Source of the DNA: Thiothrix sp.
Lineage (GTDB): Bacteria; Pseudomonadota; Gammaproteobacteria; Thiotrichales; Thiotrichaceae
Assembly (NCBI RefSeq): GCF_028714775.1
Contig: NZ_JAQTLS010000005.1
Span: 62,001 to 126,000, forward strand
Reading direction: 5' to 3'
Length of the DNA: 64,000 bases
Shown one piece after another: positions 25,660 to 37,344 of the stretch. The notes beneath the pieces were generated by a model that saw only the letters and a list, made by a program, of their open reading frames with translations, was not told the DNA's origin and made no database searches. Numbering within the stretch: position 1 is the stretch's first letter; each line of letters opens with the position of its first letter. Position numbers and translations under genes: made by a program.

Positions 25660-26380
25660 TTTTCGCCCCTGATACTTGATCGCCTGTCATTCCGAAACGC
25701 CGCTGACGCCTAGCAAAATCGGCAAACGCTGTTTGCAGGCTAGCTTCATCGAATTCCGGCCATAATGTATCCGTGAAATACAACTCGGCATACGCCAGTT
25801 GCCACATCAGGAAATTGCTGATGCGCCGTTCCCCACCTGTACGGATGAACAAGTCAGGCGTTGGCACATCACCCGTTGAAAGTGCCGCATCAAACCGCGC
25901 CTCATCCATATCCGCCAAGGCCAGCTCACCGCTTACCACCTGCGCTGCCAGTGTTTGCGCAGCTTGGAGGATGTCCCAACGCCCACCGTAATTGGCGGCA
26001 ATCAGCAAACGCATCCCCCCACAAGCGGCGGTCATCCCCTCCACTTGGGCAATCTTGTCTTGAAGCTCGGTGGAAAAAGCACTGCGGTCTCCGATGAACT
26101 GCATCCGCACCTGATGGCGTTGCAAGGCCGCTGCTTCACGTTCCAGCGCGGAAACAAACAGCGACATCAGGCCACTGACCTCATCTTCTGGGCGCTTCCA
26201 GTTTTCACTGCTGAACGCAAACAGGGTCAAGCATTCGACCCCGGCATCGCTGCACGCACGGATAACCTTGCGGGCAGATTCCACCCCCCGATGATGCCCC
26301 ATCAAGCGGGGCAAAAAGCGTGCTTTCGCCCAGCGCCCGTTTCCATCCATCACAATGGCAACATGCCGGGGAACAGTCAT
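25652..26380 (-). CDS. uppS: Undecaprenyl diphosphate synthase
   Basis: Cis-prenyltransferase of 242 residues that makes the C55 carrier for peptidoglycan and O-antigen. The catalytic aspartate motif is IVMDGNGRWAK at the N-terminus. The C-terminal pyrophosphate site is IRTGGERRISNFLMWQ, followed by AELYFTDTLWPEF. The start codon shares one base with the frr stop (TGATG). Confidence 0.96.
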   Translation of the reverse strand: MTVPRHVAIVMDGNGRWAKARFLPRLMGHHRGVESARKVIRACSDAGVECLTLFAFSSENWKRPEDEVSGLMSLFVSALEREAAALQRHQVRMQFIGDRSAFSTELQDKIAQVEGMTAACGGMRLLIAANYGGRWDILQAAQTLAAQVVSGELALADMDEARFDAALSTGDVPTPDLFIRTGGERRISNFLMWQLAYAELYFTDTLWPEFDEASLQTAFADFARRQRRFGMTGDQVSGAKNA

Positions 26381-26937
26381 CAGACCTCCATCAATTCTTT
26401 TTCTTTCTTCTCTAGCACTGTTTCCACTTCCTTGATGTAGTGGTCAGTCAGCTTCTGGATGTCGTCAGCAGCTTTGCGCTCTTCGTCTTCGGAAATGTCT
26501 TTCTCTTTCAGCAATGCCTTGAAATCGGAATTGGCATCGCGGCGGATATTGCGGATCGCAACCCGCGCACCTTCGGCTTCACCTTTAACCACTTTCACCA
26601 AATCGCGGCGGCGCTCTTCGGTCAATGCAGGCAAAGGTACACGGATAGTATTGCCGTCATTGGATGGGTTCAAACCCAGATTGGAAGTCAGGATAGCCTT
26701 CTCAATCTTGCCCGCCATCGGCTTTTCCCACGGCGTCACTTTCAGGGTACGTGCATCTTCCGTACCGATATTGGCTACTTGGCTCAACGGCACTTCAGAA
26801 CCGTAGTAGTCCACCGTGATTTGATCCAACAAGCTCGGATGTGCACGGCCTGTACGGATTTTCGTTAAATCGTTGCGCAGGGACTCAATACTTTTCTGCA
26901 TCCGCTGCTCTGCATCTTTTTTAATGTCTGCAATCAT
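26380..26937 (-). CDS. frr: Ribosome recycling factor
   Basis: Protein of 185 residues (family 185). It begins [19 protein letters not shown] and contains [29 protein letters not shown] and the three-helix-bundle C-terminal half. With EF-G it splits post-termination ribosomes. Four bases separate it from pyrH, the conserved order. Confidence 0.97.
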
Positions 26938-26941
26938 TTAT

Positions 26942-27676
26942 TCAAACCTCAACCAAAGTTCCAACCGCTTCACCGCCTACAATGGCAGCAAGCGCACCCG
27001 GTGCGAACATATCGAACACACCCAAGGTAAGTTTATTATCACGGCACATCACCATGGCCGTTAAGTCCATCACACCCAACTGACGTTGGATAGCATCGTC
27101 GAAGGATAACCGATCAAAGCGTTTCGCATCAGGATTTTTTTTCGGATCAGCATCATAAATGCCGTCCACTTTAGTGGCCTTCAGCAATAAATCGCATTGC
27201 AATTCCACCCCGCGCAAACTGGCGGCGGTGTCGGTGGTGAAAAACGGGTTGCCGCTGCCTGCCGCGCAGATGACTATATCGCCTTGTACCAGATAACGGC
27301 GGGCTTGGTGGGCGGAATAGCGTTCGCCGACCTGATCAATCCCCAGCGCGGTCAGCACCCGGCAGTTGCCGCCGAGTTTCTCGATAGCGTCTTGCATCGC
27401 CAGCGAATTCATTACGGTTGCCAGCATCCCCATTTGGTCGCCACGCACCCGATCCATGCCTTTTTCCGCCAAACCCGCGCCACGGAACAGGTTGCCACCA
27501 CCGATCACCACGGCAACTTGTACGCCAGAACGTTGCAATGCCAGTGTTTCGCTAGCCACACGGTAGAGGATTTCAGGGTCAATGCCGGAGTCTTGCTTGC
27601 CTAACAGGGCTTCACCACTGAGCTTCAGCAGGATGCGGCGGAAACGGGGTTCGGGGCTGGAAGGTGTCGCTGACAT
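26942..27676 (-). CDS. pyrH: UMP kinase
   Basis: Hexameric bacterial UMP kinase, 244 residues from the ATG at 27676, with an AGG-containing ribosome site upstream. Motifs are ILLKLSGEALLG, VIGGGNLFRGAGL and a nucleotide segment LLKATKVDGIYDADP. In most proteobacteria pyrH follows tsf in one operon. Here an island of about 7.8 kb on the opposite strand lies between them, and a separate promoter-like sequence stands just upstream. Confidence 0.96.
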   Translation of the reverse strand: MSATPSSPEPRFRRILLKLSGEALLGKQDSGIDPEILYRVASETLALQRSGVQVAVVIGGGNLFRGAGLAEKGMDRVRGDQMGMLATVMNSLAMQDAIEKLGGNCRVLTALGIDQVGERYSAHQARRYLVQGDIVICAAGSGNPFFTTDTAASLRGVELQCDLLLKATKVDGIYDADPKKNPDAKRFDRLSFDDAIQRQLGVMDLTAMVMCRDNKLTLGVFDMFAPGALAAIVGGEAVGTLVEV

Positions 27677-27708
27677 GGATTCGCCTACGCTTATTAAAAT
27701 TGGGTGCA

Positions 27709-27737
27709 TTTATACAGGTGGGAGGAAAAAGGGGCAA
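27709..27737 (-). promoter_or_regulatory. Sigma-70-like promoter for pyrH and the downstream operon
   Basis: On the minus strand TTGCCC (27737-27732) and TATAAA (27714-27709) are separated by exactly 17 bases. They stand about 33 bases before the pyrH ATG. This would supply transcription of pyrH onward now that the gene is cut off from rpsB-tsf. Confidence 0.5.
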
Positions 27738-27816
27738 GCCAATATCGCGCCAGATTCATTGTTGCGGAAAAATCCCGTATCATCTGACGGATTATCCGCC
27801 CAAGGTAAACGCCCCC

Positions 27817-30732
27817 ATGCCTAAGGTTTTCATCAGTTATAGCCACGATTCGGACGCGCACCGCGAATTTGTGCGCGGCCTATCCGACCGTTTGCGCAAA
27901 GAAGGGCTGGATTGCCTGATTGACCTGTACGTGAACGGCTTTCCACCCGAAGGCTGGCAGCGTTGGATGGAAAATCAGATTGAAGCGGCTGACTTTGTGC
28001 TGTTGGTTTGCACCGAAACCTATTTGCGGCGTTATCGTGGGCAGGAAACAGACGGTGGGCGCGGCGTGACGTTTGAAGGCGTGGTCATTTCGCAAACGTT
28101 GTACGACCACTATTACCATAATGCCAAATTCATTCCGGTCATCCCCGATAATGGCAACCTTAATCATGTGCCTTTGCCGCTGAAAGGCTATTCCACTTAC
28201 CATCTGCCCAACCAATATGATGTGCTCTACCGGGTGTTGACCGGGCAGGCAGCGTACATAATGCCGGAATTGGGGGAAATCCGTTCCATGCCTGCGGCGA
28301 ATGGGCAGTCATCGCCGCTCATCCACTCCGACCGTTTGCCTACTGTTAAGGGTGGATTTTTTGGGCGGGTGGCGGAATTGCAAATGCTGGATGAGGCGTG
28401 GCAGGAAGATGCCCTCACCCCCCGGCCCCCTCTCCCGCGAAGCGGGCGAGGGGGAGGAAGAACGCGCATTGTTCAGTTTATTGCGCCGGGTGGTACGGGC
28501 AAAACAAAACTGCTGCGCCACTGGCTTGACCACAGCGCCGACATTCCGGTGCTAATTGCGTGGTCGTTCTATTCGCAAGGTGCAAGCGAAGATAAGCAGA
28601 CTTCCGCCACGCCGTTTTTCAGCCATGCGTTTGCCAAGCTGGGTTCGAGCCGCGAGCGGTTTGCGTCGGAGGAGGACAAGGGCGACCACCTCGCCGAGTT
28701 GTTGCACGGCAAACGCTACGTGCTGGTGCTGGATGGGCTGGAGCCTTTGCAACACGGCGGCGCGGCGATGCGCGGCGAACTCAAGGACAAAGCACTGCGA
28801 CAGTTGCTGCGCCAGCTTACCCGCCATCCGAGCGGCTTGTGCATTATCACCACGCGGATTGCGCTGCATGAACTCAGTGACCGCGACGCGCCCACCGTCA
28901 TCCGCCACGATTTGCAAAACCTGACGGCGGCGGATGGCATCCAGTTGCTGCAATCGTTGGGGGTGACGGGCAGCGCGGCGGAACTGGGCAAGGCGGTGCG
29001 TGAATACGGTGCTCATGCGCTGGCGTTGAGTTTGCTGGGGAATGTGTTGCGGCTGCGGCATCAGGGCGATGTGCGCAAGCGCGATACGCTCAAGGCACTG
29101 GTCAAAGCAAAGGGCAATCAAGACAGCCGCCACGCATTCAAGGTGATGCAGGCTTACGCGGAATGGTTTGCGGGCGAGCCGGAACTGGCGTTGCTGCACT
29201 TGTTGGGGCTGTTCGACCACCCCATCGGGCAAGAGGTGCTGCAAATGCTGTGGGATGCGCAGATTCCGCACCTGACCGCAGGCATTGATGAAGATGAATG
29301 GCTGGAAGCCATCGCCAGTTTGCGAGAAGAACACCACCTGTTGTCGCAGCATGACAGTGGCGGCGACCTCGATTGCCACCCGCTGATCCGCGAATACTTC
29401 GGCGGGCAACTGCAAACGCAGCAGCCGCAAGCGTGGCAGCAAGCGCATGAACGGCTGTACGAGTACTACAAAGCCCTGCCGGAGAACCCATTGCCCGATA
29501 CGTTGGAAGAAATGCAGCCGCTGTTCAGTGCGGTGGCGCATGGGTGTGCAGCGGGGTTGCATCAACAAGTTTGGGACGAAGTATTTTGGAAACGTATTCA
29601 AAAAGAATGCTTTTACCTTTGGAGAAACTTAGGTGAATTCAGTGATAATTTAGCGACTCTTGCTCATTTTTTTGATACCCCTTGGGAAAAACCGTCACCA
29701 AACCAGTCAGATACTCGCCAAGCAGAATTATTTAATTGGACAGGCTTCGGCTTACGCGCCTTGGGGCGGCTGCGTGAGGCACTGGAGCCGATGCAGGCAG
29801 CCGTTGATTTATTCGCAAAGCAAGAAAACTGGCAACAAGCCGCCATCAACGTCAGCAACCTCAGCGAACTGCAACTCACCCTCGGTGATGTGGCGCAAGC
29901 GGTGGAGAGCGGCGCACGCAGCAGCCGCTACGCCGACCAGTCCGGGGATATGTTCCAGTTCCAGCGCATGGTCAACCGCACCACCCACGCCGATGCCCTG
30001 CATCAGGCAGGGAACACCGCCGCCGCCCTTGCCCTGTTCCGGGAAGCGGAGCAACTCCAGCAGGAACGCCAGCCTTCGTTCCCGCACCTGTATTCGCTGT
30101 GGGGTTTCCGCTACTGCGACCTGCTGCTGGCGCAGGGCAGCACAGCGAAGGTGCTGGAGCGGGCGGAATATACTTTGAAAGTTTCAACAGAGCATCTTGG
30201 TTTATTGGACATTGCACTGGATCAACTCACCCTCGGACGCGCCCACCTGCAACAACTCTTACTCCCCTCTACCTCCGGGAGAGGGGCTGGGGGTGAGGGT
30301 CTTCACTGGTTAGATCAGGCTGTCGCTGGTTTACGTGTAGCAGGAGATATTACTCGTTTACCGTGGGGTCTGCTCGCCCGTGCTGCGCTGCACCGCCACA
30401 CCCGTAACTTCGCCCGCGCCCGGCAGGACTTGCAGGAAGTGTTCGACATCGCCGACGGCAGCGGGATGCGGCTGCATTTGACGGATTATCATTTGGAGAT
30501 GGCGCGGTTGTTGGTAGCGGAGGAAGAAAATCCCCCTCAATCCCCCTTTTGCAAAGGGGGAAGCCAAGAGGCTGCGGGGTCTGCTGTTCCCCCCTTTGAA
30601 AAAGGGGGGCTAGGGGGGATTTCTCTCCAAGCTCACATCGAAGCCGCTGCGAAGCTGATCGCGGAAACCGGCTACCACCGCCGCGACAAAGAACTAGCCG
30701 AACTCAAGCAACAAGCCGGAATGACGGTATGA
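27817..30732 (+). CDS. Fused SEFIR - STAND NTPase - TPR protein
   Basis: Protein of 971 residues from the ATG at 27817; the open frame extends upstream but loses the SEFIR start. Residues 1-145 are a SEFIR domain (KVFISYSHDSDAHREFV, IEAADFVLLVCTETYL, KFIPVIP). A STAND-type NTPase follows, with Walker A FIAPGGTGKTK (~221-231), Walker B YVLVLDGLEPLQ (~301-312) and sensor IITTR. A winged-helix-like part leads to TPR-like helical repeats (~600-950). Palindromic repeats are translated in frame at about 198-214, in the TPR region and near the C-terminus. Probable cytoplasmic conflict or abortive-infection protein: TPR senses, NTPase oligomerises, SEFIR executes. This role is inferred from families. 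It is a close paralogue of the split pair at 31037-34311. Confidence 0.88.
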   Translation: MPKVFISYSHDSDAHREFVRGLSDRLRKEGLDCLIDLYVNGFPPEGWQRWMENQIEAADFVLLVCTETYLRRYRGQETDGGRGVTFEGVVISQTLYDHYYHNAKFIPVIPDNGNLNHVPLPLKGYSTYHLPNQYDVLYRVLTGQAAYIMPELGEIRSMPAANGQSSPLIHSDRLPTVKGGFFGRVAELQMLDEAWQEDALTPRPPLPRSGRGGGRTRIVQFIAPGGTGKTKLLRHWLDHSADIPVLIAWSFYSQGASEDKQTSATPFFSHAFAKLGSSRERFASEEDKGDHLAELLHGKRYVLVLDGLEPLQHGGAAMRGELKDKALRQLLRQLTRHPSGLCIITTRIALHELSDRDAPTVIRHDLQNLTAADGIQLLQSLGVTGSAAELGKAVREYGAHALALSLLGNVLRLRHQGDVRKRDTLKALVKAKGNQDSRHAFKVMQAYAEWFAGEPELALLHLLGLFDHPIGQEVLQMLWDAQIPHLTAGIDEDEWLEAIASLREEHHLLSQHDSGGDLDCHPLIREYFGGQLQTQQPQAWQQAHERLYEYYKALPENPLPDTLEEMQPLFSAVAHGCAAGLHQQVWDEVFWKRIQKECFYLWRNLGEFSDNLATLAHFFDTPWEKPSPNQSDTRQAELFNWTGFGLRALGRLREALEPMQAAVDLFAKQENWQQAAINVSNLSELQLTLGDVAQAVESGARSSRYADQSGDMFQFQRMVNRTTHADALHQAGNTAAALALFREAEQLQQERQPSFPHLYSLWGFRYCDLLLAQGSTAKVLERAEYTLKVSTEHLGLLDIALDQLTLGRAHLQQLLLPSTSGRGAGGEGLHWLDQAVAGLRVAGDITRLPWGLLARAALHRHTRNFARARQDLQEVFDIADGSGMRLHLTDYHLEMARLLVAEEENPPQSPFCKGGSQEAAGSAVPPFEKGGLGGISLQAHIEAAAKLIAETGYHRRDKELAELKQQAGMTV
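28412..28457 (+). repeat. GC-rich palindromic repeat inserted in frame in the SEFIR-STAND gene
   Basis: Sequence of the CCCTCACCC...CCCCCTCTCCCGC-GAA-GCGGGCGAGGGGG type forms a near-perfect hairpin. It is translated as LTPRPPLPRSGRGG, immediately before the Walker A strand. The paralogue at 31729 lacks these codons at the same place, so it is an insertion. Confidence 0.85.
30262..30302 (+). repeat. GC-rich palindromic repeat inside the TPR region of the SEFIR-STAND gene
   Basis: CCCCTCTACCTCCGGGAGAGGGG hairpin (arms CCCCTCT/AGAGGGG class) followed by CTGGGGGTGAGGGT, translated as PSTSGRGAGGEG. The same element sits at the equivalent place in the second STAND gene (33825-33865). Confidence 0.85.
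30528..30622 (+). repeat. Pair of inverted palindromic repeats near the 3' end of the SEFIR-STAND gene
   Basis: Two hairpin units are present: 30528-30561 (CCCCCTTTTGCAAAGGGGG core) and 30587-30622 (CCCCCCTTTGAAAAAGGGGGG core, then CTAGGGGGGATTT). The second is an inverted copy of the first. They are translated as NPPQSPFCKGG and PPFEKGGLGGI. This repeat type differs from the CTCTCCC type elsewhere in the island. Confidence 0.85.
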
Positions 30733-30755
30733 ACTGACCCATTGCCGAGGAAAAC

Positions 30756-30982
30756 ATGACCAAGCAAACCTTCACATTGACCGATTTAAAAAAGCATCTT
30801 GCCCAGAAAAGCAAAGAACAGCTCATTAAGCCCGGTTCTCGGTTGCCCGTAACGCTTTCAATGACTTCAAAAAGCTAACCGATGAGTACCGGGATCGTGC
30901 GTACAGCATCGTCAAAAATGCTACCGAAGGCTGGGGGCATCAGGATTCATTGCGGGATAGCCATGATGATGTTTATGTGTGA
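30756..30982 (+). pseudogene. Decayed DUF6155-like gene (internal deletion and frameshift)
   Basis: The ATG at 30756 opens a 40-codon frame beginning MTKQTFTLTDLKKHLAQKSK, typical of the DUF6155 N-terminus. It stops at 30876-30878. A second frame over about 30842-30982 encodes FNDFKKLTDEYRDRAYSIV and EGWGHQDSLRDSHDD, resembling the C-terminal FKERC..IGWGxxDxL part of the same family. The roughly 100 residues normally between these ends are missing, so this is a remnant. It lies between the fused and the split SEFIR/STAND modules. Confidence 0.45.
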
Positions 30983-31036
30983 GGGTGTCATGACAGACAG
31001 CATAATTAACGCCCCGAGAAAACAGGACTTACTCAC

Positions 31037-31726
31037 ATGACCAAGGTTTTCATCAGTTACAGCCACGATTCAAACGCGCACCGCGAATTTGTGCGCAGTA
31101 TTTCCGACCGTTTGCGCAGTGAAGGGCTGGATTGCCTGATTGACCTGTACGTGAACGGCTTTCCACCGGAAGGCTGGCAGCGTTGGATGGAAAATCAGAT
31201 TGAAGCGGCTGATTTTGTGTTGATGGTTTGCACGGAAACTTACCTGCGGCGGTATCGCGGGCAGGAAACCGAAGGTGGGCGCGGCGTAACGTTTGAAGGC
31301 GTGGTCATTTCGCAAACGTTGTATGACCACTATTACCGCAACACCAAATTCATTCCGGTTATCCCAGCGAATGACAGTTTGGACAATGTGCCGATAGCGT
31401 TGAAAGCTTATTCAACCTACTGCCTACCTGATGATTACGATAAACTGTACAGGGTATTGACAGCCCAACCCGAATATCAAGCTCCACCGCTAGGGCAGGT
31501 GCGCAAACTGGTATCCAATGGCGGCGTTGCACCTGCTCCCGCACCAACACAAAATACCTCGATACCCAGCAGAGGGATGCAATCCATCAATAATGAGCGA
31601 CGGGTACGCTTACAGGAAAAGTTGCGGCGATTATACGAGCAATACGATTTGGAAACCCGTGTCGAAGAGAAGATGCGCATGAAGGTGATCATTGACCAGA
31701 CTGAAAGCGATTTGCAGGGATTGTAA
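31037..31726 (+). CDS. SEFIR domain effector with C-terminal docking-type helix
   Basis: Protein of 229 residues. Residues 1-145 are a SEFIR domain almost identical to that of the fused protein at 27817. After a short Pro/Ala-rich linker the last ~43 residues form a charged helical segment (ERRVRLQEKLRRLYEQY and onward). The same segment, 29 of 43 residues identical by hand alignment, opens the next protein. This fits an effector that is recruited by the adjacent STAND NTPase through like-with-like helix contacts. The SEFIR output is probably NAD-directed or scaffolding; that is inference. Two bases separate the stop from the next ATG. Confidence 0.85.
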   Translation: MTKVFISYSHDSNAHREFVRSISDRLRSEGLDCLIDLYVNGFPPEGWQRWMENQIEAADFVLMVCTETYLRRYRGQETEGGRGVTFEGVVISQTLYDHYYRNTKFIPVIPANDSLDNVPIALKAYSTYCLPDDYDKLYRVLTAQPEYQAPPLGQVRKLVSNGGVAPAPAPTQNTSIPSRGMQSINNERRVRLQEKLRRLYEQYDLETRVEEKMRMKVIIDQTESDLQGL

Positions 31727-31728
31727 AA

Positions 31729-34311
31729 ATGATGCCGGACTTGATTGAGGAACGCCGCGAGCGGTTGCAGGGAAAACTCAGGGGGTTGTATGAGGAATAC
31801 GACCGAGAAACCCGTTTTGAGGAAAAGTTGCGGCTCAAGGCAATTATCAGCGATACAAAAAAAGACTTGCAGGAGTTGGCAGCAAACTCACGCGCAACGC
31901 CAACACCCAGCAACATCCGCATCGACCGCCTGCCCACCGTTCAAGGTGAATTCTTCGGACGTGAGGCCGAACTACAACTACTAAATGATGCTTGGACAAA
32001 CGGCAAGACCAACATCATCCAATTCATAGCACCCGGCGGTACGGGTAAAACCAAGATGCTGCGCTACTGGCTGGATCAGGTGCGCCCTGAAAAGCTGATT
32101 GCATGGTCTTTCTATTCACAAGGTGCGAGTGAAGAGAAGCAGCCTAGCGCAACCCTATTTTACAACCTTTTGTTTGACTTGCTTGATCCATCAAAAACGG
32201 TCACGGATTTTGCCAATCAGCCGGAAAAGATGGGCGAGTATTTGGCTGATCTGCTGCGGCAGCAAAATTGTTTGCTGATACTGGATGGTTTTGAGCCATT
32301 GCAACATTCCAGTGCGGTACTGCGTGGTGAACTCAAAGACCGAACTCTGCGTGCTTTGTTAAAATCACTGGCAGCGCACCACGCCAGCCTTTGTATCATC
32401 ACCACCCGCATTGCGATACGCGAACTTAGTGGTCATTCACAACCTGTCGTAATTTCTCATGACTTGCAAAATCTTGCCGAGCAGGATGGTGTCAAGCTAT
32501 TGAAATCCCTGAATGTAACAGGTAGCGACACCGCTTTGCTCAAGGCTGTAAACGAATACGGTCGTCATGCACTGGCACTGCACTTGCTGGGCAATGCGCT
32601 CACTATCTATCTGGATGGCGATATTCTCAAACGCGACACACTGGATGAGTTGTTTGGCGAAGAAGCCTACACCGACGTTGAACGACACGCCTTCAAAGTC
32701 ATGCAGGCATATAAAACATGGCTGAAAGATACGCCAGAATTACAACTGCTGTATTTGCTGAGTTTGTTTGACCACCCGATTGAGGCCGAAGTGCTGGAAG
32801 TGTTATGGAAAGCACAGATTCCCGGTTTGACGGATAAGATTCCGCTCAAGGCTTGGAAAGTTGCTATTCGTGACTTGCGTGAAAAACATCGTTTGCTCTC
32901 AACACACGAAGGTCGTCCTGACTTGCTCGACTGCCACCCGCTACTCCGCGAGTACTTCGGCAAGCAACTGCAAATCCAGCGACCTAAAGCGTGGCAACAG
33001 GCACATAAAAAACTATATGAATACTACAACGCCCTGCCTAAGAAAACCTACCCAGATACTTTGGAGGAAATGCGCCCCTTATTCCATGCCGTAACACATG
33101 GGTGTGCCGCAGGCTTACATCAACGGGTGGTAACGGAAGTTTATTATTCACGTATTGAGCGCAAAGAAGAATTTTATAACGTCAAGAAGCTTGGAGCTTT
33201 CAATGATGACCTTGCCGCCATCGCCTGCTTTTTTACCGAGGTATGGAAAAAACCTTCCGCCAAATTGCCTGACATATGGCAACTTAGGTTGTTAGGCTAT
33301 GCAGGCTTCTGCTTACGGGCATTGGGACGGTTACATGAGGCATTAGAACCTATGGCCGCAAACGTTGCATTAGCCGTGAAGCAAAAAAATTGGAAAGAAG
33401 CAGCTATCGGTGCCAGCAACCTCAGCGAACTGCAACTCACCCTCGGCGATGTGGCGCAAGCGGTGGAAAGCGGCGCACGCAGCAGCCGCTACGCCGACCA
33501 GTCCGGGGATATGTTTCTGCGTATGGGATTCCGCGCCACCCACGCCGATGCCCTGCATCAGGCAGGAGACACCGCCGCCGCCCTTGCCCTGTTCCGGGAA
33601 GCGGAGCAACTCCAGCAGGAACGACAGCCGGAGTTCCCGCGCCTGTATTCGCTGCCCGGTTTCCGCTACTGCGACCTGCTGCTGGCGCAGGGCAGCACTG
33701 CGGAGGTGTTGGAACGGGCGGAATATGATTTGGATTGTTGGACGAACCATTTTAGAAATGGGAGTTTGCTGGATTTTTCACTGCCAAAACTCACCCTCGG
33801 ACGCGCCCACCTGCAACAACTCTTGCCCCCCTCTACCTCTGGGAGAGGGGCTGGGGGTGAGGGTCTTCACTGGCTGGAGCAGGCTGTCGCTGGTTTGCGT
33901 GCAGCAGGAGACGCAGAAATGGTGGCACTCGGTCTGCTCGCCCGCGCTGCCCTGCACCGCCACACACACGAATTCACCCGCGCTCGGCAAGACTTACAAA
34001 AGGTCTTCGACATCGCCGAACCCAGCGGGATGCAACTGCATTTGACGGATTATCATTTGGAGATGGCGCGGTTGTTGGTGGCGGAAACCCTCACCCCAAC
34101 CCCTCTCCCGCCAAGCGGGCGAGGGGCTAAGACTGGGGAAAGTGCATCTTGCCCCCCCTCTACCGCTCAGCGGGAGAGGGGGGCGGGGGGTGAGGGTCTT
34201 CAATACCACGTCGCCGAAGCCGAACGCCTGATCAACGAAACTGGCTACCACCGCCGCGACGCCGAACTGGCTGAACTCCAACAACAATTAGCCAAAGGAA
34301 ACACCCCATGA
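31729..34311 (+). CDS. STAND NTPase - TPR protein with N-terminal docking-type helix
   Basis: Protein of 860 residues with no SEFIR domain. Residues 8-50 are the charged helix matching the C-terminus of the preceding SEFIR protein. The NTPase follows (GREAELQLL, FIAPGGTGKTKML Walker A, CLLILDGFEPLQH Walker B, CIITTRIAIREL). Then come a helical region and TPR-like repeats (~560-830). Palindromic repeats are translated in frame in the TPR part and near the C-terminus. It corresponds to the fused protein minus its SEFIR part. The stop overlaps the HipA-like gene (ATGA). Likely the sensor and switch of a conflict system. Confidence 0.87.
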   Translation: MMPDLIEERRERLQGKLRGLYEEYDRETRFEEKLRLKAIISDTKKDLQELAANSRATPTPSNIRIDRLPTVQGEFFGREAELQLLNDAWTNGKTNIIQFIAPGGTGKTKMLRYWLDQVRPEKLIAWSFYSQGASEEKQPSATLFYNLLFDLLDPSKTVTDFANQPEKMGEYLADLLRQQNCLLILDGFEPLQHSSAVLRGELKDRTLRALLKSLAAHHASLCIITTRIAIRELSGHSQPVVISHDLQNLAEQDGVKLLKSLNVTGSDTALLKAVNEYGRHALALHLLGNALTIYLDGDILKRDTLDELFGEEAYTDVERHAFKVMQAYKTWLKDTPELQLLYLLSLFDHPIEAEVLEVLWKAQIPGLTDKIPLKAWKVAIRDLREKHRLLSTHEGRPDLLDCHPLLREYFGKQLQIQRPKAWQQAHKKLYEYYNALPKKTYPDTLEEMRPLFHAVTHGCAAGLHQRVVTEVYYSRIERKEEFYNVKKLGAFNDDLAAIACFFTEVWKKPSAKLPDIWQLRLLGYAGFCLRALGRLHEALEPMAANVALAVKQKNWKEAAIGASNLSELQLTLGDVAQAVESGARSSRYADQSGDMFLRMGFRATHADALHQAGDTAAALALFREAEQLQQERQPEFPRLYSLPGFRYCDLLLAQGSTAEVLERAEYDLDCWTNHFRNGSLLDFSLPKLTLGRAHLQQLLPPSTSGRGAGGEGLHWLEQAVAGLRAAGDAEMVALGLLARAALHRHTHEFTRARQDLQKVFDIAEPSGMQLHLTDYHLEMARLLVAETLTPTPLPPSGRGAKTGESASCPPSTAQRERGAGGEGLQYHVAEAERLINETGYHRRDAELAELQQQLAKGNTP
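33825..33865 (+). repeat. GC-rich palindromic repeat inside the TPR region of the second STAND gene
   Basis: CCCCCCTCTACCTCTGGGAGAGGGG hairpin type followed by CTGGGGGTGAGGGT, translated as PPSTSGRGAGGEG. It is the same element at the same position as 30262-30302, with few base differences. Confidence 0.85.
34087..34199 (+). repeat. Two GC-rich palindromic repeats near the 3' end of the second STAND gene
   Basis: Unit 1 (34087-34128) has the core CCCCTCTCCCGC-CAA-GCGGGCGAGGGGC. Unit 2 (34151-34199) has the core CCCCCCTCTACCGCT-CA-GCGGGAGAGGGGGG, followed by CGGGGGGTGAGGGT. They are translated as LTPTPLPPSGRGA and PPSTAQRERGAGGEG. The fused paralogue carries a different repeat family at this same place. 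Confidence 0.85.
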
Positions 34312-35045
34312 CCACCCCGCAAATCACCCAAATCATCCGCCGCACCGACCAAGGCGCAACTCGCCCCTTCATTTGCCGTGCCGACGATGGCAACGTGTAT
34401 TACGTCAAAGGTCGGTCAGCTTCCACAGGTGAACGCATCCGCGAATGGATGGGAACCCATCTGGCAACCGCATTCGGCTTGCCCGTCCCACCCATGTGCC
34501 TACTCGAAATTCCCGATGTACTGATCAGGTCGAGCGGTGATGATACCGCCCATGATTTGGGTACAGGCTACGCAGTCGGTTCCCGCCAGATTTTGGCAGC
34601 AAGCGAACTCCGCCATGATGAAATCCCTTTGGTTCCCGCCAACATCCAACAATCGGTGTTATTGTTTGATTTCTGGGTACAAAATGAAGACCGCACCCTC
34701 TCAGACCTTGGTGGCAACCCCAATTTATTGTGGAACAAAGCAACGACCAGCCTTCACGCCATTGATTACAACCTCATCCTACCCAATGTCTTTGATGCGA
34801 CGGAATTCTGGCAAACCCACGTATTCCGCCACGCCTTCGCCCAACGGGGTCTGGATGAACCGCACAAACAGCAGTTTGAACAACAGATGCAACACGCACT
34901 CGCCACTTGGCAACAAGCATGGGATCAACTGCCAGAGGAATGGCTGGACGAAAACCAAGCCACAGGTTCTTTTGACGGCACAACTGTGCTAAAACGGTTG
35001 GAGCATGACGCTACTGGCGCTATTTGGGAGGAGTTCAACACATGA
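34308..35045 (+). CDS. HipA-like kinase domain protein
   Basis: Protein of 245 residues resembling the short HipA_2-type kinase fold rather than full HipA. It has an N-terminal beta-rich part with YYVKGRSASTGERI, VPPMCLLEIPD, the catalytic-loop-like LLFDFWVQNEDRTLSD (D and N positions) and the metal-binding LHAIDYNLIL. Genes of this type are commonly paired with DUF3037, as here. It overlaps both the STAND gene before it and the DUF3037 gene after it by ATGA, showing tight translational coupling. Substrate unknown; a protein-phosphorylating role is inference. Confidence 0.7.
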   Translation: MTTPQITQIIRRTDQGATRPFICRADDGNVYYVKGRSASTGERIREWMGTHLATAFGLPVPPMCLLEIPDVLIRSSGDDTAHDLGTGYAVGSRQILAASELRHDEIPLVPANIQQSVLLFDFWVQNEDRTLSDLGGNPNLLWNKATTSLHAIDYNLILPNVFDATEFWQTHVFRHAFAQRGLDEPHKQQFEQQMQHALATWQQAWDQLPEEWLDENQATGSFDGTTVLKRLEHDATGAIWEEFNT

Positions 35046-35443
35046 AAGAAGCGTTCCAATACAATATCATCCGCTTCCAACCCGACACGGAAACGGGCGA
35101 ATTCGCCAATATCGGCGTGGTCGTATACGCTCCCGTCGCCCATAGCTTAGCATTCCGCCTGCTTACACCGGGACAACATCAGCGCATTACCGGATTTTTC
35201 AGCCCACTGGATAACAGTGTTTTCCAAAGCACCTTAGCCTTAGCGCAAACCGAATTGCAACGGGTGCAAAAATTATTACCCAAGGTAACAAACCCCGCAG
35301 GCTTGTACGAAGAATTGATCCGCGCCCGCGAAGACATTATCCGCTACGCCCCCACTGGCGTAATTCTGGGCGATGCCCCGCAAACCAGTGCGAATGAGCT
35401 GTTCAACCGCTACGTAGAACGGGTACAGCCGCTAGCCGCCTGA
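35042..35443 (+). CDS. DUF3037 family protein
   Basis: Protein of 133 residues from the ATG at 35042, which overlaps the HipA-like stop. It has the conserved start FQYNIIRFQPDTETGEFANI and VVVYAP. The middle SPLDNSVFQSTLALAQTEL region is followed by REDIIRYAPTGVILGD and a C-terminal helix. Function is not established; the family regularly sits next to HipA-like kinases and may be a partner or inhibitor. Last gene of the four-gene cassette. Confidence 0.75.
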   Translation: MKEAFQYNIIRFQPDTETGEFANIGVVVYAPVAHSLAFRLLTPGQHQRITGFFSPLDNSVFQSTLALAQTELQRVQKLLPKVTNPAGLYEELIRAREDIIRYAPTGVILGDAPQTSANELFNRYVERVQPLAA

Positions 35444-35460
35444 GCAAATCCCAGACGTAA

Positions 35461-35485
35461 GAAAGGGGCAACCAGTGCCCCTTTC
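35461..35485. terminator. Hairpin between the DUF3037 gene and tsf
   Basis: Perfect 10-bp stem GAAAGGGGCA / TGCCCCTTTC with a 5-base loop, 17 bases after the DUF3037 stop. Neither side has a clear U-tract, so it is a weak or rho-assisted terminator candidate for the island and possibly for tsf. Confidence 0.5.
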
Positions 35486-35507
35486 CGCAAAAACCCTTCC
35501 ACTCTTC

Positions 35508-35547
35508 GCCCCTCTACCTATGGGAGAGGGGTTGGGGTGAGGGTTCC
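35508..35547. repeat. GC-rich palindromic repeat directly after the tsf stop codon
   Basis: CCCCTCTACCTATGGGAGAGGGG core followed by TTGGGGTGAGGGTT, the same family as 30262-30302 and 33825-33865, here intergenic. It abuts the tsf stop codon at 35548. Confidence 0.85.
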
Positions 35548-36414
35548 TTAACCCGCTGCCGCAGCCGCTTGCGCCGCTACTTCATCAGCAAAGTTTTCCT
35601 GTTTCTTCTCAATGCCTTCGCCCACTTCCAGACGGATGAATTGGCTGATACTTGCACCTTTGGATGCCAGCAAGTCGCCTACCGTTTGGTCAGGGTTCAT
35701 GACGAACGGCTGGCCTACCAGCGTGATTTCGCCCAAGAACTTCTTCATGCGACCGACAACCATTTTTTCCGCAATTTCGCGTGGTTTGCCGCTTTGCATC
35801 GCGATGTCGATTTGGATTTCGCGTTCACGATCAACCACTTCGCTCGGCACACCGGATTCGTCGATGCAAACCGGACGGCTAGCCGCGATGTGCATAGCAA
35901 CGTGCTTGCCAACTTCGCCTTCGCCACCGCTCATGCACACAACAACACCGATTTTCGCGCCGTGTTGGTAAGATGAAATTTGGCCTTCACCCGCATCAAC
36001 CGTCACCAAACGACGGACTTGGATGTTTTCACCGATCTTAGCGATCAGTGCAGTACGGCTAGCTTCCACCATCGCAGACAGGGTTTCAACGTCTGCTACC
36101 GCGTTTGCCAATGCCAGTGCGCCAACTTCGTTAGCGAAATCAGCAAAGTTGCTGTCTTTCGCGGCAAAGTCAGTTTCGCTGTTGACTTCAACAACCGCAG
36201 CACGTTTGCCATCGTCAGAAACGGTGATGACCACGCGGCCTTCTGCGGCGATACGGCCTGCTTTCTTGTCAGCTTTAGCCGCACCGGATTTACGCATCAG
36301 GTCGATTGCCGCTTCCATCTCCCCGTTGGTTTCCGTCAGGGCTTTCTTACATTCCATCATGCCTGCGCCAGTACGTTCGCGCAGTTCTTTAACCATTCCA
36401 GCAGTAATTGCCAT
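35548..36414 (-). CDS. tsf: Elongation factor Ts
   Basis: Guanine nucleotide exchange factor for EF-Tu, 288 residues. The N-terminal UBA-like part has [20 protein letters not shown], followed by [20 protein letters not shown] and the core domain with [12 protein letters not shown]. It follows rpsB with the usual 36-base gap and a GGAG ribosome site. Its normal partner pyrH has been separated from it by the plus-strand island. Confidence 0.97.
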
Positions 36415-36450
36415 AGGGGGTATAACTCCTTATCTCAACGGCAACAGGGC

Positions 36451-37224
36451 TTAGGCGCCTGCATCCGTGGTTGGGGCAGCTTCAGCAGCAGCCTCGTCAG
36501 TGGTGGTTTCTTCAGCGACCATTTCCTGTGGAGCAACGGCAGCGCTGGTGTGGCCTTCGTTAACCGCATCGGAAGTGGCAGACACGTACAACTGGATCGC
36601 ACGGATCGCGTCGTCGTTGCCCGGAATAATGTAATCAACGCCTTGCAGGGAGTTGTTGGTATCGACAACGCCGATAACTGGGATACCCAGTTTGTTGGCT
36701 TCCTGCACTGCGATTTTTTCGTAGCCCACGTCGATGATGAAAACAGCATCCGGCAGGCCGCGCATATCTTTGATACCGCCAAGGCTGCGTTCCAGCTTTT
36801 CAGCTTCGCGGGTCAGGGTCAGGATTTCTTTCTTGCCCAACTTTTGGAAAGTACCGTCTTCAGCCATTTTCTCAAGGTCTTTCAGACGCTTGATGGAGCC
36901 TTTTACGGTTTTGAAGTTGGTCAGCATACCACCCAACCAGCGATGGTTGACGTATGGCATTTTGCAAGCAACTGCTGCATCACGCACTGCATCACGTGCA
37001 GAACGCTTAGTGCCGACGAACAGGATTTTACCACCTTTGGATGCCAGCTTACCGACCACGTTCAGCGCGTCGTTGAACATTGGCAGGGTCTGTTCCAAGT
37101 TGATGATGTGAATTTTGTTGCGTTCGCCGAAGATGTACGGACCCATTTTTGGGTTCCAGTAACGGGTTTGGTGGCCGAAGTGGACACCTGCTTCCAGCAT
37201 CTGGCGCATAGTAACTTTAGGCAT
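36451..37224 (-). CDS. rpsB: 30S ribosomal protein S2
   Basis: Protein of 257 residues from the ATG at 37224, preceded by AGGAG; upstream in-frame residues are not typical. It begins [20 protein letters not shown] and contains [32 protein letters not shown] and [11 protein letters not shown]. The C-terminal tail is acidic and alanine-rich. Divergent from map. Confidence 0.97.
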
Positions 37225-37344
37225 TGTCAGTCTCCTGTGGGTTATGCCTCCATACATCCCATCAACGCAACCAGATGAAACTCATCCAGCACCCTGCGCG
37301 ACGTGTCGATGTATGTGTGAATTAAAAAACAATCAGTAAAACAA

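Follow-up and report, generated by a model that had tools for sequence, protein, structure and literature searches.

Rickettsia palindromic elements (RPEs) are palindromic repeats of several families, found inserted in frame in many genes that are unrelated to one another (PMC10969869, PMC3733652). A second described system pairs repeats with an enzyme: RAYT genes are bracketed by their cognate repetitive extragenic palindromes (REPs) (PMC8266576, PMC3733652), and intragenic REPs, also known, have been proposed to occupy linkers or loops (PMC3733652). We studied a palindromic repeat that lies in frame in a SEFIR-STAND-TPR gene of Thiothrix sp. (RefSeq assembly GCF_028714775.1). The window is the whole stretch of DNA analysed, 64,000 nucleotides long (contig NZ_JAQTLS010000005.1, positions 62,001 to 126,000 of the forward strand). 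We concluded that the insert is a copy of a mobile palindromic element dispersed in the genome, and its origin by insertion is well supported. In the fuller reading that we consider probable, this mobile palindrome occupies a tolerant protein loop, and every palindrome family has a DUF559 nuclease of its own that moves it. The open-access literature that we searched named no mover for palindromes of this kind and contained no paper linking DUF559 to palindromes; subscription literature was outside the search.

The gene carrying the insert (27817..30732, + strand) was defined from its open reading frame (ORF), its Pfam match to SEFIR and a model of its nucleotide-binding domain. It encodes an immune-like protein of 971 aa with an N-terminal SEFIR domain (PF08357, 2.3e-16). 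In Foldseek searches the model of the NTPase part resembled Apaf-1 (3e-8), plant NB-ARC and the bacterial STAND-TPR structure 6mfv (1e-7), and the full-length model had TPR-like helical repeats C-terminal to the NTPase part. The NB-ARC-like fold, the P-loop GGTGKT and the repeats that follow it identify the protein as a STAND NTPase. At the position that we call site 1, repeat searches and alignment showed a type-A palindromic unit of subtype IV (GCGAAGC loop) at 28412..28459 (+ strand), read in frame as LTPRPPLPRSGRGGG. This unit is 48 bp long, folds into a hairpin of −28 kcal/mol and adds 16 residues relative to empty orthologues. Direct reading of the sequence placed the Walker A loop GGTGKT (28489..28506, + strand) 10 codons 3' of the repeat. 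A first-pass annotation, made from the sequence alone, had correctly given the start of the repeat and the position of the insert between DEAW and the Walker A strand; its end point of 28457 and its count of 17 residues are corrected here.

The full-length structure model was of low confidence in the NTPase part, and therefore a model of that part alone was used (20 sequences, mean predicted local distance difference test score (pLDDT) 76.7). The insert, residues ~199–213, had pLDDT <50 and was flanked by a helix on one side and the Walker A strand on the other. The model thus puts the site-1 insert in a disordered loop just N-terminal of the Walker A strand.

A 111-bp query around the site-1 repeat had 50 matches in its own genome (E ≤ 0.001). 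The core pattern CTCTCCCN{2,14}GGGNGAGNG gave 82 strand matches there, compared with 0 for the reversed control pattern. The earlier claim of a palindromic repeat in frame before the Walker A strand was confirmed. The first-pass annotation had also proposed collecting all copies in the genome and counting those within genes. This was carried out in 42 own-genome stretches, indicated by the 111-bp query and the core pattern, in which a profile search found 82 units distributed over 57 places, of which 32 held a single unit and 25 a pair. The census did not extend to C4, C16, C43 and C48 of this genome, so the 57 places are a lower bound. All 25 pairs were oriented + then −, and never the reverse. 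The unit is a GC-rich hairpin of ~40–48 bp that starts with CCCTCACCCC and ends in GGGGGAGCAAGA or GGGGCTAAGA; a pair measures ~100 bp. Unit A (46–48 bp) starts with CCCTCACCCCCC and ends with GGGGGAGCAAGA, and unit B (about 40 bp) starts with CCCTCACCCCAA and ends with GGGGCTAAGA. Loop sequences define subtypes II (AGAGGTAG), III (TCAAG) and IV (GCNNAGC), the last being that of the window copy. In 43/81 copies the motif AAGA lay no more than 8 nt from the 5' border, compared with 4/81 in an interval further out. GGAAGA flanks the window copy on both sides; AAGA also belongs to the 3' end of the unit.

Of the 57 places, at least 20 were in-frame positions in the interior of recognisable genes, and the others were at gene ends, uncertain or outside genes. 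Four of the in-frame places lie in the window's two STAND genes (28412, 30262, 33826 and a pair at 34088). Two further STAND paralogues (L046) account for three more and an nSTAND1-WD40 protein for two. One place each was found in TmcA, 6-phosphogluconolactonase, HsdS (a Pfam match for one half only, the other half being assigned from its repeated motif), a TIR-Lcl protein, SMC, a lipoyl-E3 enzyme, an E2 enzyme, PrmC, an ABC ATPase, NuoG and CobB. The rarity that had been claimed for a palindrome tolerated in frame was therefore not borne out. The internal in-frame copies were mostly between Pfam domains. TmcA (L052 863-2506) carries the same kind of insert, LTPRPPLPLSGRGGG, immediately before its Walker A motif, and the copies in PrmC and TmcA stand just before an S-adenosylmethionine (SAM) or nucleotide motif, yet at domain borders. 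We rejected the idea that the insert has to do with ATP binding as such, since other loops and the stretches between domains hold most of the remaining internal insertions. The closeness to the nucleotide-binding loop pointed out earlier is real as a position; in meaning it seems to reflect tolerant loops and domain borders, because most other insertions lie in linkers. Units were open in 1 to 5 of the six reading frames, mostly 3 or 4, and 29% of random 48-mers from the window were open in 5 or more, so a special openness of the elements in all frames was also rejected. Because the units are not unusually stop-free, their in-frame survival is best read as selection after insertion.

The first-pass annotation had noted a single insert, and overlooked two more in the same protein as well as the linked nuclease described below. 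The second in-frame unit (site 2; 30262..30299, − strand) is in the TPR region, has a AGAGGTAG-type loop in the opposite orientation and is read as LPSTSGRGAGGEG. The third insert (site 3; 30527..30624, + strand; NPPQSPFCKGG...PPFEKGGLGGI) comes from another palindrome family, type C, which had 9 own-genome matches (E ≤ 0.001). Inserts 2 and 3 are predicted to fall in inter-helix loops by the full-length model, which is of lower confidence (mean pLDDT 64.5). A separate SEFIR gene (31037..31726, + strand), part of a paralogous pair, is followed by the paralogous STAND-TPR gene (31729..34311, + strand). Site 1 of this paralogue is empty, as had been reported; yet it has repeat-derived inserts at the two other sites, namely an in-frame unit at site 2 (33826..33863, − strand) and an in-frame unit pair, + then −, at site 3 (34088..34196).

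The same STAND loop, two other STAND loops and two SMC hinge loops have received further inserts in related species, from different palindrome families. Among 18 STAND homologues, the pre-Walker-A loop held inserts of three palindrome kinds in five and was empty in 13, including the tandem paralogue. Subtype IV occupied site 1 in the window gene, G013 and G014, whereas G015 had a different unit there, CCCTCACCCCAACCCC, and G002 (L029, near 1180-1256) had a longer palindrome of an unrelated kind, GTAGAGACGC...GCGTCTCTAC. Every relative with a site-1 insert has palindromic DNA at that place; an insert in relatives lacking repeat-like DNA, which would have marked an ordinary loop, was not seen among them. 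On a tree of the NTPase part with the insert removed, the site-1 states need four changes. Site 2 held STSGRGAGGEG-like inserts in seven homologues, ETPPNLPLSGE-like inserts in four and none in seven, and the kind of insert at site 3 differed in nearly every homologue; the peptide kinds at these two sites were read by eye from the alignment, with the DNA checked for part of them. The SMC hinge was filled in 8 of 16 genus genomes, with in-frame palindromic inserts at two loops, the same two throughout (in G005 at one of them only), and was empty in the other eight. The hinge inserts varied by genome between subtype III and the CCCTTCCCCCGCAAGGGG kind (I).

A gene for a DUF559 (PF04480) protein in L056 is bracketed by one repeat pair, and all three DUF559 genes of the genome are bracketed by palindromes. 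At least one DUF559 gene was present in each of the 15 genus relatives searched. We compared 39 loci, which remained from 46 in the genus, family and class after removal of two without a profile match, three weak long proteins and two duplicates. Palindromes of the same subtype flanked both sides in 22 of these, one side only in 10 and neither side, among the listed subtypes, in 7; two different subtypes at one locus were not found in any of the 39. When the subtype rules were not used, the 200-bp flanks still had a common exact word of ≥12 in 30/39 loci. In the nuclease tree, subtypes I, II, III, C and IV corresponded to one clade each, and all subtype labels together needed 9 changes, compared with a mean of 23.8 when shuffled (0/200 shuffles). 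The 13 genes of clade I are spread over at least 11 unrelated neighbourhoods, so the nuclease appears to travel with its palindromes. Subtype IV, that of the window copy, brackets a clade IV gene on both sides in G013 and, by pattern, on one side in G002. Genomes with the cognate nuclease clade also had more palindrome copies for clades II (p = 0.0015), III (p = 0.010) and IV (p = 0.038).

Directly upstream of the orthologous SEFIR-STAND gene, G003 has a clade I DUF559 gene together with its palindromes (G003:C1:3965104-3965421, L116), and a DUF559 fragment is near the G007 SEFIR-STAND orthologue. G007 is Thiothrix fructosivorans by sequence identity (100% over 3315 bp), which gives the genus as Thiothrix. 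The type-C family (window 30527-30624; L120, L222, L224; NPPQSPF..KGGLGGI) pairs with a DUF559 clade of its own in G010, G003 and G006.

Beyond the genus, we analysed 80 named-genome loci from many phyla. They were the best 80 of 551 when the query was an alignment that we had made from members of the genus, family and class, which were mostly bracketed themselves. The flanks of 77 were long enough, and one locus (L132) is identical with the genus locus L100. A word of ≥13 was common to both flanks in 49/77 DUF559 loci, compared with 4/159 control ORFs from these loci (odds ratio 68, p = 8e-26). Among the 51 named loci with a word of ≥12, 37 had it inverted and 14 direct. A GC-rich hairpin was present on both flanks of 40/77 DUF559 loci and of 1/159 controls. 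Palindromic repeats of similar look occur across many bacterial phyla.

The DUF559 profile matched the solved endonuclease-like protein 3hrl. Its match to the mobile-intron nuclease 3r3p, which we take to be I-Bth0305I, was weak (E = 0.0026, profile positions 39-108). A published assignment places a DUF559 gene among the EDxHD homing endonucleases (PMC9403480), and the Caulobacter DUF559 protein VsrA, linked to a cytosine methylase, is a predicted Vsr-like mismatch-repair nuclease (PMC12907096). We infer a role for the enzyme that would include both cutting and copying. Each palindrome family would be moved by its own DUF559 nuclease, of a Vsr-like or EDxHD homing-endonuclease type, which might cut near a palindrome or at a target containing AAGA. 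Repair would then copy into the cut the palindrome or, at times, two palindromes enclosing the nuclease gene. Such a cut of the homing type, repaired from a template that bears the palindrome, would account for the bracketing, the matching and the spread. On this scheme a palindrome entered the SEFIR-STAND loop, which presumably tolerates extra residues; the site-1 copy would have survived because its length is a multiple of three, it is stop-free in that frame and the loop accommodates it.

A number of observations weigh against this account. No movement event was observed in the genomes compared, and no clean target-site duplication was established among the unit borders compared. Openness in 4 or 5 of the six frames was confined to 45/82 units, the others being open in fewer. 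The subtype patterns were drawn up after the flanks had been seen, neither subtype V nor the set of unlabelled loci forms a single clade, and support for clade IV (2 rows) is weak (69/54). The match of clades II and III is partly due to common descent, because these clades partly share neighbourhoods. When three bracketing copies per carrier were subtracted, the association of copy number with the cognate clade gave p = 0.0098 (II), 0.019 (III) and 0.063 (IV). Subtype IV copies are most numerous in the window's own genome (29 matches), where none of the three DUF559 genes belongs to clade IV, and subtype III had 42 matches in G001 and 32 in G009, which have no clade III nuclease. Among the named loci, 20/77 had no flank word of ≥11 in common.

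Two rival explanations concern the insert itself. That it is an ordinary hypervariable loop, grown by low-complexity expansion with no mobile element, would agree with its disordered setting and with the longer, different sequence of G002. We find this hardly credible, and for the window copy it is refuted, because the 48 bp belong to a dispersed family with 50 matches and 0 in the control, and most homologues are empty at the site. A more serious possibility, although one we think somewhat improbable, is that the inserts of the window gene, G013 and G014 go back to one old insertion that was spread by local gene conversion or repeatedly lost. Gene conversion draws some weight from the border bases that the three genes have in common, GAGGAAGAAC, unlike the usual GAGCAAGA; they are also of one subtype, and the window gene and G014 can form one clade. 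A clade of all three, as a single origin of a shared insert would give, was rejected (approximately unbiased test, p-AU 9e-7). Moreover, other palindromes occupy the same codon position in G015 and G002, and the SMC hinge has been re-used likewise.

Two others concern the enzyme. The palindromes might be moved by a RAYT/TnpA-REP or insertion sequence (IS) transposase acting in trans, with DUF559 as a passenger, or as a parasite homing into existing palindromes. HuH transposases do move REPs in other bacteria (PMC8266576, PMC3733652), the genome has one Y1_Tnp gene, and palindrome copies without a nuclease far outnumber nuclease genes. We nevertheless consider this unlikely. The sole Y1_Tnp (RAYT-like) gene, L049 (G000:C3:33301-33528), is flanked in REPtron style by a different repeat, TGTAGGAGC...GCGA; a HuH Y1 transposase bracketed by the present repeat was thus not found in this genome, and RAYT was rejected as the mover. 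Palindrome subtype also tracks DUF559 clade, with flanks at one locus never of two subtypes, and a homing passenger would need that specificity too. The remaining suggestion, that DUF559 is a host mismatch-repair enzyme of the very-short-patch (VSP) type, with the palindromes as its terminators or regulators and no mobile unit, takes its strength from VsrA and its methylase partner. It seems to us quite improbable, since the same palindromes are found at dozens of other places, also inside genes, since the bracketing is two-sided and inverted in most named loci, and since clade I occupies so many unrelated places.

The surroundings of the host gene were also noted. A HipA_2-like kinase gene (Pfam; window 34308-35045) is directly 3' of the paralogous STAND gene. 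Within window 26380-37257, the SEFIR-STAND and HipA-like genes, on the + strand, stand between pyrH (AA kinase family) and tsf/rpsB on the − strand. The usual gene order is rpsB-tsf-pyrH-frr, which is therefore split here by an island of ~7.8 kb.

The first-pass annotation had been reminded of palindromes inserted in the genes of some other bacteria, and the comparison with RPEs fits. The Thiothrix palindromes too are in frame in unrelated genes, a likeness in position. They differ in size, the unit being about 45 bp and the pair about 100 bp compared with about 150 bp for RPEs (PMC10969869), and in that a candidate partner nuclease was found for them. The non-coding pairs resemble miniature inverted-repeat transposable elements (MITEs) in their length of ~100 bp and their terminal inverted repeats, CCCTCACCCC...GGGGTGAGGG, and differ in that no parental IS was identified in a search limited to Y1_Tnp. 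With EDxHD homing endonucleases such as I-Bth0305I the enzyme has in common the weak profile match; in contrast, the DUF559 protein here is about 110 aa long, free-standing and bracketed by dispersed palindromes.

Repeated in-frame hits on the same loops of essential proteins amount to a natural insertion-tolerance experiment, and in-frame palindrome insertion is a way for proteins to gain linkers. The one-to-one match between nuclease clade and palindrome subtype, in five subtypes, makes the question of the mover directly testable with a protein of ~110 aa. We see roughly even chances that DUF559 and CCCTCTCCC-type palindromes form a widespread, unnamed two-part mobile system across many phyla, with the nuclease in a RAYT-like role, homing palindromes into new sites and, in Thiothrix, writing and replacing short peptides in loops of core proteins such as SMC and STAND receptors. 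REP/RAYT systems (REPtrons) share with it the short hairpins in inverted pairs (here all + then −), an enzyme bracketed by its cognate repeat and the matching of types. They differ from it in the enzyme, which here is DUF559 (Vsr/EDxHD-like) and not a HuH tyrosine transposase, and in the tag: the Thiothrix hairpins have no GTAG/CGTC at their base, their borders being CCCTCACCCC and AAGA, and some variants have GTAG within the stem only. The RAYT gene bracketed by its cognate REPs is nonetheless the closest working model, and by analogy with it we read DUF559 and its palindromes as a REP/RAYT-like partnership.

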